NCBI GenBank assembly: GCA_023441725.1
Contig: JAEZNV010000023.1
Location: 1 to 11,046 of the forward strand
Origin: Actinomycetes bacterium
GTDB taxonomy: Bacteria; Actinomycetota; Coriobacteriia; Coriobacteriales; Coriobacteriaceae
Direction: 5' to 3'
DNA length: 11,046 nucleotides
This document shows positions 1,287 through 3,072 of the stretch, piece by piece. The notes beneath the pieces were generated by a model. The model had not been told where the DNA came from. It searched no databases and saw only the letters and a program-made list of their open reading frames with translations. The stretch's first letter is position 1; each line of letters begins with the position of its first letter. Made by a program: the position numbers and the translations under genes.

Positions 1287-1377
1287 CGCTCCTCGCGTGC
1301 TACGCTGGAAAACGCTTCGCGTTTCCTCAGCTCCGCACCCTTGCGGGTTCGAATCCCTCTGCGATGGGCCCAAAAAG
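1287..1377. repeat. Repeat unit copy 2, left part (interrupted by the IS110 element)
   Basis: Matches 1099-1190 with three differences and includes the CTTCG-loop hairpin (1304-1331) and the T-arm-like sequence (1343-1359). It ends at CCCAAAAAG, where copy 1 continues directly into GAAAGGCCCCC. Here that continuation is found only at 2961, after the insertion sequence. The 42 bases between copy 1 and copy 2 (1245-1286) contain only GC-rich hairpin sequence and no gene. Confidence 0.85.
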
Positions 1378-1380
1378 ACG

Positions 1381-1397
1381 ATATGAGAAAGCCATTG
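1381..1397 (+). repeat. Subterminal inverted repeat, left (17 bp)
   Basis: ATATGAGAAAGCCATTG is the perfect reverse complement of 2941-2957 at the right end. It starts three bases inside the inferred left boundary. The outermost three bases do not match between ends, so the repeats are subterminal, as known for IS1111-type members. Confidence 0.85.
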
Positions 1398-1408
1398 GGG
1401 CCGCCTCC

Positions 1409-1434
1409 CCCGCGGCGCAGCTTCTTTCCGCGGG
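1409..1434. other. Hairpin in the left noncoding region of the IS
   Basis: A perfect 7 bp stem, CCCGCGG (1409-1415) with CCGCGGG (1428-1434), around a 12-base loop CGCAGCTTCTTT. There is no T-run. It could be part of a structured leader of the transposase transcript or a secondary RNA element of the IS. Function unknown. Confidence 0.5.
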
Positions 1435-1469
1435 CTCGGGGTGCCACAATGGGCTTTGAGTATCGGCCC

Positions 1470-1490
1470 GTGCGGTAGCCCTTACCGCAC
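1470..1490. promoter_or_regulatory. 8 bp hairpin just upstream of the transposase ribosome binding site
   Basis: GTGCGGTA (1470-1477) and TACCGCAC (1483-1490) form a perfect stem with a five-base loop. The transposase Shine-Dalgarno (GGGGAGGAGG, 1495-1504) follows directly and lies 6 bases before ATG 1511. Hairpins at this place in insertion sequences often limit translation from read-through transcripts; that role is inferred here. Confidence 0.5.
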
Positions 1491-1510
1491 CTGCGGGGAG
1501 GAGGCTTCCC

Positions 1511-2620
1511 ATGCCCCATGTTACCTCCATCGGCCTGGACGTCCACGCGCGATCGGTCGCCGCGGCGGCGTTCAACCCCTTCACCGGCGAGGTGGTGCAC
1601 CGCGACTTCGGGACGGACGCCGCCGAGATCGCCGAGTGGGCGCTCGGGTTCGAGGACCCGAGGGCGTGCTACGAGAGCGGACCCACCGGCTTCCACATGG
1701 CGCGCGAGCTGCGCGCGCTCGGCCTCGACTGCGCCGTGGCCGCCGTCTCCAAGATGCAGAGGCCGGCGGCGGACGCCCGGCGCAAGAACGACCGGCGCGA
1801 CGCCGAGTTCATCGCCCGCATGCTCGCCACCCACAACATCGTCGAGGTCCCGCTGCCCGACGTGGCGGTCGAGGCCGCCCGGGACCTCGACCGCGCCCTC
1901 GACGACGCGACCCGCGAGCTCCGCCGCTCGAGGCAGCGCCTCAACATGTTCCTGATCAGGCTGGGCCACGTCTGGGACGAGCGCAACGCCGACGGGGCGA
2001 GGAAGAAGGCCTGGACGAGGGCCCACTGGAGGTGGGTCTCGGAGATCAGGCTCGAGGGGCCGCAGCGCGACGCGCTGGAGTACTACGTCACGGCCGCCCG
2101 CTGCGCGGAGTCGGACAGGCGGCAGCTCGAGAGGAGGGTCGTCGCGCTGGCGGGCACCGACCGCTGGCGGGCGACGGTGGAGGCGCTGTCCTGCATCAAG
2201 GGGGTCGACACCCTGACGGCCTTCAGGCTCGCGGCGGAGGCCGGGTCCTTCAGCAGGTTCCGCTCGGCGCCGGCCTTCGCGAGCTGGTGCGGGCTGACCC
2301 CGTCGGAGCACTCGAGCGGCGAGTCCGAGCGGCGCGGCGGGATAACCAAGGCCGGCAACGCGCTCGCGCGCACGGCGCTCATAGAGTCCGCATGGCACTA
2401 CTCCACGTGCTCCCCGAGGCCCAAGGCCCCGGCCCCCGGCACCGACGTGCCCCCGGCGATACGCTCGAGGGCGGACGACTGCACAGCCAGGCTCCACCGC
2501 CGCCGAGAGGCGCTGGCCGCGGCGGGCAAGAGCGCGTGCAAGGCCAACGCCGCCGTGGCGCGCGAGCTCGCCTGCTGGGTCTGGGAGATCGGGTGCAGGT
2601 CCGAGGGGACCGTCCTCTAG
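1511..2620 (+). CDS. IS110-family transposase (DEDD RuvC-like plus C-terminal serine domain)
   Basis: This 369-residue recombinase moves the IS through a circular intermediate, guided in this family by an RNA encoded in the element. The N-terminal RuvC-like domain (about 1-150) shows the DEDD set: Asp10 (IGLDVH), Glu55 (CYESGPTG), Asp94 and Asp97 (KNDRRDAEF). A basic, coiled-coil-prone middle (about 125-215) follows. The C-terminal Transposase_20 domain (about 222-300) has LSCIKGVDTLTAFRL, WCGLTPSEHSSG and RRGGITKAGN, with the catalytic serine expected in the SSG (268-270). Length and motif order are normal, with no frameshift, so it is probably active. ATG 1511 has a strong ribosome binding site 6 bases upstream. 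Codon use (many AGG arginines, GC-rich third positions) differs from argD and asnB. Confidence 0.95.
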   Translation: MPHVTSIGLDVHARSVAAAAFNPFTGEVVHRDFGTDAAEIAEWALGFEDPRACYESGPTGFHMARELRALGLDCAVAAVSKMQRPAADARRKNDRRDAEFIARMLATHNIVEVPLPDVAVEAARDLDRALDDATRELRRSRQRLNMFLIRLGHVWDERNADGARKKAWTRAHWRWVSEIRLEGPQRDALEYYVTAARCAESDRRQLERRVVALAGTDRWRATVEALSCIKGVDTLTAFRLAAEAGSFSRFRSAPAFASWCGLTPSEHSSGESERRGGITKAGNALARTALIESAWHYSTCSPRPKAPAPGTDVPPAIRSRADDCTARLHRRREALAAAGKSACKANAAVARELACWVWEIGCRSEGTVL

Positions 2621-2767
2621 CGGCCGGCGACAACCGACTCCCGCCGGGAGGGCCCGCGCCTCGACGCATCGCCGGCGCGAGTTCACGACCTTTTTGATGG
2701 GCAGCCCCCGGGCCGCGCCCGACAAAAGACTGGATTCGTACGATAGCGCCGGACGGAGAATCGAAAT
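2621..2767. other. Upstream part of the IS right noncoding region
   Basis: No gene is seen. Short potential stems include CTCCC-GCC-GGGAG near 2640-2650 and GATTC/GAATC (2733-2737 with 2758-2762). The octamer CCTTTTTG (2689-2696) is the reverse complement of CAAAAAGG in the empty target site, and CAAAAG (2723-2728) partly resembles the left target flank. These could be target-guide segments but are too short to assign. Confidence 0.4.
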
Positions 2768-2880
2768 GCGGTGGGGTGCGCGGACATACCGGGCTGACCG
2801 CCGGAAGCGCACCCGCAGGAGCCCGCGGATATTAGCTTGCCAGGCAAGCGTCGACTAAGCCATGCAGCGTGCGCGGGCTC
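2768..2880 (+). ncRNA. Candidate bridge RNA / seekRNA of the IS110 element (limits approximate)
   Basis: Two consecutive stem-internal-loop structures are visible. Stem A is GGGTGCGC (2774-2781) with GCGCACCC (2807-2814), enclosing an inner CCGG/CCGG helix. Stem B is GAGCCCGCG (2819-2827) with CGCGGGCTC (2872-2880), a perfect 9 bp, enclosing an inner hairpin GCTTGCC-A-GGCAAGC (2835-2849) with single-stranded sequence on both sides. On the 5' side of that inner hairpin, ATATTAG (2829-2835) equals the right end of the element including the AG core (2954-2960). On the 3' side, GTCGACT (2850-2856) can pair with core plus left end AGACGAT (1376-1382) with five Watson-Crick pairs, one G-T and one mismatch. 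That is the arrangement of a donor-binding loop in IS110-family bridge RNAs. A matching target-binding loop was not recognised. The 5' and 3' ends and expression are unknown. Confidence 0.6.
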
Positions 2881-2895
2881 TCCCGACGGGAAACG

Positions 2896-2920
2896 AAAAA
2901 GCCCGGCTTCAAACCGGGCT
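2896..2920 (-). terminator. Intrinsic terminator on the minus strand inside the IS right end
   Basis: AGCCCGG (2900-2906) pairs with CCGGGCT (2914-2920) around a 7-base loop. The A-run at 2896-2900 becomes a T-run when read on the minus strand. It would stop transcription entering the IS from the tRNA-Val side, before it runs antisense to the candidate guide RNA and the transposase. Confidence 0.65.
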
Positions 2921-2936
2921 CGAACGAACATGCCTA

Positions 2937-2942
2937 TTGACA
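2937..2942 (+). promoter_or_regulatory. Consensus -35 box near the right tip of the IS (candidate circle-junction promoter half)
   Basis: A perfect TTGACA reads outward on the plus strand and overlaps the first bases of the right inverted repeat. In the integrated state no good -10 lies 16-18 bases on. If the ends are joined in a circle, the 17-base-spaced hexamer across the junction is GACGAT, which keeps the conserved A, A and T of TATAAT. Circle-junction promoters are known for IS110-family members; here the -10 is weak. Confidence 0.45.
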
Positions 2943-2957
2943 ATGGCTTTCTCATAT
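2941..2957 (-). repeat. Subterminal inverted repeat, right (17 bp)
   Basis: CAATGGCTTTCTCATAT is the exact reverse complement of 1381-1397. It lies three bases inside the inferred right boundary (2960). Confidence 0.85.
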
Positions 2958-2960
2958 TAG

Positions 2961-3014
2961 GAAAGGCCCCCATCGCTGGGAGCCTTTTCAATCAAGTGGT
3001 GGGCGATGAGGGAT
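2961..3014. repeat. Repeat unit copy 2, right part
   Basis: These 54 bases are identical to 1191-1244. They contain the tRNA-Val terminator and the last 18 bases of the tRNA-Val gene, and they are the half of copy 2 separated from 1287-1377 by the IS. Confidence 0.9.
2962..2988. terminator. Terminator of tRNA-Val, bidirectional
   Basis: The stem is AAAGGC-C-CCC / GGG-A-GCCTTT with loop ATCGCT. On the minus strand it begins 8 bases after the CCA end of tRNA-Val and ends in TTT; on the plus strand TTTT follows. The IS insertion point is directly at its tRNA-distal edge, so the stem is intact. Confidence 0.75.
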
Positions 3015-3072
3015 TCGAACCCCCAGCCTTGTGCGTGTAAAGCACCTGCGCTAACCGTTGCGCCAATCGCCC
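2997..3072 (-). tRNA. tRNA-Val (anticodon UAC), CCA encoded
   Basis: The minus strand folds as a complete cloverleaf of 76 bases including CCA. The acceptor stem GGGCGAT/ATCGCCC is perfect, the D-stem is GCGC/GCGC, the anticodon loop is TTTACAC with TAC at positions 34-36 (reads GUA valine codons), the T-arm is GGGGG-TTCGAAT-CCCTC, and the discriminator is A. The bottom anticodon-stem pair (27-43) is G-A rather than Watson-Crick; the other four pairs are normal. The IS lies 36 bases past the CCA end, so the gene itself is intact. Confidence 0.95.

Follow-up and report, generated by a model that had tools for sequence, protein, structure and literature searches.

The window analyzed here (the whole stretch of 11,046 nucleotides) carries a gene for an IS110-family transposase followed by a non-coding region, and the question raised by this locus is whether that region encodes a bridge RNA whose guide segments can be read against the ends and targets of the element. 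A preliminary description of the locus had predicted such an RNA downstream of the gene, and this prediction is borne out by guide segments that track the ends and targets over 42 families of related elements. Its expectation that the guide system could be read from the sequence also held, since all four guides could be located over these families. However, the layout that it proposed requires revision, such that the earlier observation is partly confirmed and its interpretation partly supported.

The element is an intact IS1111-type member of the IS110 family in Collinsella (Table 1). Its transposase matches the Pfam families PF02371 (E 4.5e-23) and PF01548 (E 5.9e-10) and the NCBIfam model NF033542, named 'IS110 family RNA-guided transposase' (E 1.9e-59), and a PDB sequence search at E of 0.01 or below found two distinct relatives, IS621 and ISCro4, at E values of about 1e-5. 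The translation includes the sequence GLTPSEHSSG, which corresponds to the motif GL-P----S(t)G that defines the IS1111 group in the accessible text of PMC11187229, and the C-terminal PF02371 domain is present. The DEDD label applies to the protein as a whole. Elements whose transposases are 99% and 95% identical to this one are found in Collinsella aerofaciens genomes.

Table 1. Positions of the element, its ends and the segments of its predicted bridge RNA, numbered from the first letter of the window.
Feature	Positions	Strand	Basis or remark
IS1111-type element, with the AG core of the left end included	1376-2958	+	Inverted repeats, unoccupied orthologous site
Left end, made up of core AG (1376-1377) and the right-donor bases ACGAT (1378-1382)	1376-1382	+	Invariant in close relatives, flanks variable
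Left subterminal inverted repeat ATATGAGAAAGCCATTG	1381-1397	+	17/17 match to 2941-2957
DEDD transposase, 369 amino acids, intact ORF	1511-2620	+	Profile matches
Target-binding module, 81 nt; outer stem CCGGCGC (2672-2678) / GCGCCGG (2746-2752)	2672-2752	+	Stem covariation
Right target guide (RTG) CCTTTTTG	2689-2696	+	Pairs with top strand, core and right target
Target-module apical hairpin GGGC...GCCC	2699-2720	+	Between RTG and LTG
Left target guide (LTG): AAA (2724-2726), core AG, AC	2724-2730	+	Equals left target, core, left-end +1,+2
Right donor guide (RDG) ATCG	2760-2763	+	Pairs with CGAT (1379-1382) of left end
Donor apical stem TGCGG (2767-2771) / CCGCG (2823-2827), distal hairpin 2774-2781 / 2807-2814	2767-2827	+	
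Left donor guide (LDG): ATATT and core AG	2829-2835	+	Identical to right end
GTCGACT, within a conserved GCGTCGA-like motif	2850-2856	+	Not supported as guide
3' hairpin GCCCGG...CCGGGC, candidate RNA end	2901-2919	+	Sequence and alignment
TTGACA, presumed -35 box for circle-junction promoter	2937-2942	+	Conserved in 23/23 aligned elements
Right subterminal inverted repeat (2941-2957), end ATATT (2954-2958)	2941-2958	+	Target core AG at 2959-2960

The ends have the form expected of this group. The inverted repeat is perfect over 17 bp, within the IS1111 range of 7-17 bp, and terminal extensions of 7 bp on the left (AGACGAT) and 3 bp on the right (ATT) lie outside a 15-bp inner repeat. Together with the location of the non-coding region downstream of the transposase gene, these are marks of the IS1111 group according to the accessible text of PMC11187229, which is also the source for the presumed promoter role of TTGACA at the circle junction. 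An Rfam search at the gathering threshold returned tRNA as the sole match.

Unoccupied loci confirm the element borders. An unoccupied orthologous locus reads CCCAAAA[AG]GAAAGG, which is the left flank of this copy, the core and its right flank as predicted. For one related copy (L005), a search in which 12 of 43 genomes gave a match returned nine unoccupied loci (L274-L282), and these have the left flank, AG and the right flank at the junction. For another (L004), ten loci were returned, three of which (L285, L286 and L288) are unoccupied and read AA, whereas the occupied copy is bordered by AG at its left end and by AA at its right; among the other loci, some were shifted, unlike, or absent at the seed. 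Thus, the left AG is most likely supplied by the element and the right dinucleotide kept by the target, whose bases are not duplicated. This absence of target duplication, seen at unoccupied sites, is another IS1111 trait.

To locate guides, we searched related genomes for elements at the DNA and the protein level. After exclusion of six loci with too little flank, of loci with fewer than 251 aligned residues and of duplicates, 134 elements remained, each with its best candidate repeat pair, good or poor. We anchored 103 of these at end motifs, while the other 31 had no matching repeat or were without TATG or CATA end motifs, and so the selection of families favors elements with the usual end motif. 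Alignment of 100 of the 103 gave 45 clusters, three of them without flank, leaving 42 representative families. Input to the aligner was trimmed around the best right-end match, which introduces a mild circularity that concerns the LDG only.

A scan without preset guides tested 210 RNA columns against 28 end or flank bases, both for identity and for complementarity, using shuffles of the DNA between the 42 families as background, and all four guide segments are among its 13 strongest signals. The last right-end base is matched by column 2833 at a frequency of 0.98 (0.33 expected), and columns 2726 and 2725 equal the last two left-target bases (0.93 versus 0.30 and 0.83 versus 0.28, respectively). 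Right-target bases are complemented by columns 2694 and 2692 (0.71 each, versus 0.26 and 0.27), and left-end positions +3 and +2 by columns 2762 and 2763 (0.90 versus 0.57 and 0.98 versus 0.84). As a control, a window was moved along the RNA (about 190 positions) for each end or target side in the same families. One isolated best position emerged for each side, whereas the highest z values in scans of the opposite sense were 2.5-3.9. The resulting order along the RNA is RTG (2690-2696), LTG (2724-2730), RDG (2760-2763) and LDG (2829-2835). Separate segments therefore match the left and right target and the left and right donor, which characterizes bridge RNAs in the wide sense, and the guides are arranged in pairs around apical stems, with covariation in the stems that join right and left guides. 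Judged from these sequence comparisons, a bridge RNA (seekRNA) is encoded in the non-coding region that follows the gene.

In the target module, the outer stem forms 227 of 252 pairs when scored on the best six (202.4 in shuffled sets, none of 2000 reaching 227), and the apical stem forms 178 of 210 (158.4 shuffled; 0/5000). The RTG is the best of 189 windows for the right target (z 10.7), followed by its own one- and two-base shifts (z 7.8 and 5.3) and then by z 3.1. When the register is left free, 249 of 294 Watson-Crick pairs form over the 42 families (149.5 +/- 6.6 expected), and 30 families have six or seven of the seven pairs. Likewise, the LTG is the best of 189 windows for the left junction (z 12.5, next 3.4). 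Its first three bases give 99 matches versus 35.7 in a direct shuffle (0/5000), and a free-register count gives 275 of 336 versus 203.0. In this copy the LTG matches three left-target bases, the core and two left-end bases; the core is included in the LTG, the LDG and the best RTG window.

The RTG of this copy forms only five of eight Watson-Crick pairs with its own target, plus two G-U pairs (counted by eye), and pairs better with the target of L004 (7/8). Two relatives with transposases 89-99% identical to this one, L002 and L004, have RTGs that match their own targets at 8/8 each, which on this pairing is natural retargeting among close copies. The RTGs of L003 and L005 fit their own targets poorly (3/8 and 5/8), and such sites may be off-target insertions or may have been altered later.

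In the donor module, the segment ATATTAG at 2829-2835 had been described as identical to the right end with its core (2954-2960), and this is the true LDG: it is the best of 189 windows for the right end (z 9.8, next 3.3), and a direct shuffle gives 276 versus 229.6 (0/5000). Right ends ATATT, ATATC, ATATG, ATATA and ATAAG all recur in the LDG. Mismatches occur at the third base in eight families (L170, L175, L193, L206, L210, L212, L219 and L093) and at the second base in L040, and the last right-end base is missed in one of 42 (L172). Extension of the LDG by two bases into the right target carries no signal in the 42-family shuffle (z 1.1). At the core base of the LDG (2835), 11 of the 42 families have AA in the guide versus AG in the element's own left core, and in 10 of these 11 the guide equals the target core; that the LDG core follows the target core is odd for a pure donor guide.

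The RDG is the best of 192 windows for the left end (z 7.0, next 2.7). It starts at left-end position +2, no core pairing being seen for this guide, and forms 143 of 168 pairs with positions +2 to +5 (128.3 +/- 2.2 expected; 0/5000). Changes in the left end are answered in the guide, as in CGAT/ATCG, CAAT/ATTG, AGAT/ATCT (L217), CAGT/ACTG (L212), TGAT/ATCA (L222) and CGGT/ACCG (L214). Exceptions are four families with two of four pairs (L140, L223, L046 and L047) and, with three of four, an AACG subgroup and further families, among them L175, L190, L128 and L042; in L175 the guide does not track the altered left-end base +2. The donor apical stem forms 189 of 210 pairs over the families (161.8 +/- 3.2 expected; 0/5000), with variants that include TGCGT/ACGCG, TGCAG/CTGCG, TATGG/CCATG and TGTGG/CCACG; L190 and L046 are exceptions that pair at 1/5.

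These positions differ from the earlier layout, in which a donor loop at 2819-2880 would hold ATATTAG and GTCGACT as guides in the IS621 order, and 2774-2814 would be the target loop. In this copy the proposal has some appeal. The 9-bp stem formed by GAGCCCGCG (2819-2827) and CGCGGGCTC (2872-2880) is indeed perfect, and GTCGACT (2850-2856) does form five Watson-Crick pairs and one wobble, with one mismatch, against AGACGAT (1376-1382); these pairs were counted by hand. Over the 42 families, however, the stem is at chance (193 versus 194.8), which rules out 2819-2880 as a conserved enclosing stem. Sliding windows place GTCGACT at rank 13 of 189 (z 2.1), and so it is rejected as the right donor guide. 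That guide lies 5' of the LDG and outside the proposed loop. Thus, of the proposed donor-binding loop, ATATTAG as left guide stands, but neither its partner nor its frame does, and of the two loop segments only ATATTAG tracks its end in related copies, while GTCGACT fails to follow the changing left end, an outcome that the preliminary description had itself named as refuting. The target signal falls in the target module rather than at 2774-2814, which is ruled out as a target loop and is instead the hairpin between RDG and LDG. Compensatory changes, proposed for both stems, were found on both sides of this hairpin in six of eight pairs but in only one of nine pairs of the 9-bp stem, among 10 distinct near relatives in which 66% and 80% of cells, respectively, are paired.

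A residue of the GTCGACT association persists. In the 32 of 42 families that have all seven letters there is a weak excess of 133 versus 126.0 pairs counting wobbles (z 3.1), which 12 of 5000 shuffles reach, and Watson-Crick pairs alone give z 2.4. In many families a GCGTCGA-like motif (2848-2858 and equivalents) lies 3' of the LDG and does not follow the ends, and this motif explains the apparent match. We therefore give the earlier layout almost no credence relative to the four-guide order described above.

Related elements have ends in common, and agreement between guides and ends could in principle reflect shared ancestry rather than function. A quick tree built from the transposases of the 42 representatives implies at least seven changes of the last right-end base and at least eight of the corresponding LDG column. 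Independent pairs taken on supported branches agree between this base and the LDG for T (2/2), C (3/3), G (4/4) and A (1/1), although these tests overlap. For the RDG, four pairs change in the same sense and three show no difference when left-end +3=A is compared with T in the guide; the numbers are two and four for +3=G with C among the pairs listed, and two and one for +2=C with G. For +4=A with T they average 1.5 in the same sense, 0.5 opposite and two with no difference. Pairs per base are few, and none of these sign tests on the right end and the RDG is significant at 0.05. Yet for the ends no control window in these families exceeds z 2.7-3.9, compared with 7.0 and 9.8 for the two donor guides. 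Relatedness is common to all windows and is thereby partly controlled for, and isolated peaks are poorly explained by ancestry alone. Moreover, the target guides match flanks that belong to each insertion and are not inherited. An explanation by ancestry is thus extremely improbable, and the alignments suggest that pairing with the ends is kept by selection.

Ten plasmid elements were fetched once the model was formed, and six of these had a legible left and right end, read by eye and with knowledge of the model; L300 was dropped, L301 has no visible ends, and L297 and L299 have no right end in the stretch examined. The order RTG, LTG, RDG, LDG is found in four of the six (L293, L296, L298 and L294), with the RDG chosen as the best of three candidates in L296 and as the better of two in L298. 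The order in L302 is consistent with this, but its LTG and RTG places are tied, and in L295 the motif-anchored RDG is absent and the LDG tied. The RTG has six or seven of seven pairs in all six elements, the LDG matches at 7/7 in four, 6/7 in one and 5/7 in one, and the RDG pairs at 4/4 in one, 3/4 in three and 2/4 in one and is absent in one. When ends were swapped between elements, a 7/7 RTG was found in none of 30 combinations versus three of six with own ends (with at least six in 11 of 30 swapped), and a 7/7 LDG in two of 30 versus four of six, both swapped cases being between two Pseudonocardia elements with equal ends. The plasmid LTG does no better than with swapped ends, which reach 6/7 in 12 of 30. 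Therefore, this set supports the RTG, the LDG and the guide order, but not the LTG by itself. The plasmid hosts are Alphaproteobacteria and Pseudonocardia, and thus the guide layout probably extends beyond Coriobacteriia.

Systems of this kind are already known, and the reversed order of target segments has been published: the accessible text of PMC11187229 describes for IS1111 a segment complementary to the top strand located 5' of the bottom-strand one. The long non-coding region downstream of the transposase gene, with the top-strand-complementary target segment first, is found here as well. As in ISEc11, ISPa11 and ISKpn4 of the IS1111 group, in the same portion of that paper, there is a DEDD transposase with subterminal repeats and a non-coding region downstream of its gene, and 7-bp and 3-bp extensions, insertion without target duplication and the target-segment order are likewise common to the group. 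That description concerns target segments only, whereas the RNA here has in addition a donor module, right guide before left, that covaries with the ends. With IS621, as far as the accessible parts of PMC11208160 and PMC11208158 describe it, the RNA has in common two modules, four guides, a core dinucleotide and an apical stem loop between guides, with left guides identical and right guides complementary to the top strand. However, each IS621 loop has its left guide 5' of its right guide, and that RNA is derived from the left end, ahead of the gene, whereas the present RNA has the opposite guide order in both loops and lies downstream.

Donor-binding nucleotides have also been predicted for IS1111 RNAs by Durrant 2024 (PMC11208160), who state in the accessible text that these may lie in the multi-loop, and the donor order there may equal that found here; the available text of neither PMC11208160 nor PMC11187229 states the donor-guide order for IS1111. 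Among the matches listed in our literature search, judged by title and the start of the abstract and with subscription papers and preprints outside its scope, there was no later paper on IS1111 donor recognition. Three IS1111 bridge RNAs were predicted in that study, for elements taken here to be ISCARN28, ISAzs32 and ISPa11 among the six named in the legend to Extended Data Fig. 10.

The target module might also act as the guide RNA alone; the protein would then recognize the ends by their inverted repeats, with donor segments that are remnants or serve another role, such as RNA processing. Siddiquee 2024 (PMC11187229, accessible text) reports that an 82-nt seekRNA suffices for ISEc11 movement, which casts doubt on whether a donor module is needed. 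The target module here is 81 nt, and the published short RNA could thus be the target module alone. On the other hand, both donor guides track the ends over 42 families, including a right-end base that has changed at least seven times, and this covariation is plainly at odds with the published finding that so short an RNA is enough. We consider it improbable that the target module acts alone. If the short RNA is the target module, the donor module could be dispensable in that assay or active in another step.

We are highly confident in the alternative, namely that this IS1111-type element has a two-module bridge RNA for guided recognition of ends and target, with recombination at the core. The target module would comprise RTG, hairpin and LTG, and the donor module RDG, hairpin and LDG. 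RTG and RDG would pair with top-strand sequence on the right side of the core, and LTG and LDG with bottom-strand sequence on its left side. Using RDG and LDG, the RNA-bound transposase would recognize the circular junction of its joined ends (right end-AG-left end), and using RTG and LTG it would recognize the target. Recombination between the two at the core would leave the element's AG at the left junction and the target's own dinucleotide at the right. This scheme is drawn by analogy with IS621 (PMC11208158) and IS1111 (PMC11187229), as set out in the accessible text of both. Transcription, protein binding, the circular intermediate and the chemistry would follow that published work, and they are added to an element whose ends, guide positions, covariation, stems and unoccupied sites are read from DNA.

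The two bases that follow the LTG might have a further role. In a comparison over 38 of the 42 families they match left-end positions +1 and +2 above shuffled expectation (z 3.8; 6/5000). The guide bases are AC, but three families with a left end of AA have AA instead (L175, L217 and L224). Exceptions are L222 (left end AT, guide AA) and six families with left end AC and a different guide (L193, L138, L197, L210, L046 and L047). In IS621, two handshake bases come after the right guide (PMC11208158, accessible text), whereas the tentative equivalents here come after the left target guide, and AC is a possible handshake guide. Also, the LDG core base agrees with the core of the target in 36 of 42 families, although the left core of the element has G there in all 42. 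Together, the matches after the LTG and the agreement of the LDG core with the target hint at a mirrored handshake in which the bottom strand is exchanged first. The full proposal is that the IS1111 bridge RNA mirrors that of IS621 in both loops, that left guides run through the core into partner DNA, that the bottom strand is exchanged first and that the 7-bp and 3-bp extensions are donor-guide sites. We advance this tentatively, as a speculation that is more likely wrong than right.

If the donor module acts as proposed, recognition of IS1111 ends by RNA is reduced to testable positions, the RDG at 2760-2763 and the LDG at 2829-2835, and the long-noted terminal extensions might be read as guide binding sites. 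The guide grammar is legible over 42 families, which offers many natural starting points for RNA-guided recombinases.

Some observations concern the surroundings of the element. A comparison of 1150-1253 with 1330-1377 and 2959-3020 reveals an unoccupied near-copy of the target (GGGCCCGAAAAAGGAAAGGCCCCC), accompanied by a repeated unit that, by eye, resembles a tRNA tail and a terminator. Thus, the element lies within a duplicated tRNA-proximal segment. In related elements, insertions often border a GC hairpin, and some of these hairpins look terminator-like (L002 and L012). A strict terminator test of right flanks was positive for six of 41 elements with transposases at least 50% identical and one of 55 below 50%, versus 33 of 2000 random stretches, and a looser GC-hairpin test was positive for 22 of 41 close and nine of 55 distant elements, versus 319 of 3000 random stretches. 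Because many of the 41 close elements are copies from one genome and not independent, an insertion preference for terminators is suggestive only. Finally, six copies in a single genome (L075-L080, genome G033) have a transposase gene that lacks its center (from about residue 114-133 to 303-330, with borders that differ) and retains both gene ends, and these copies resemble short non-autonomous derivatives.
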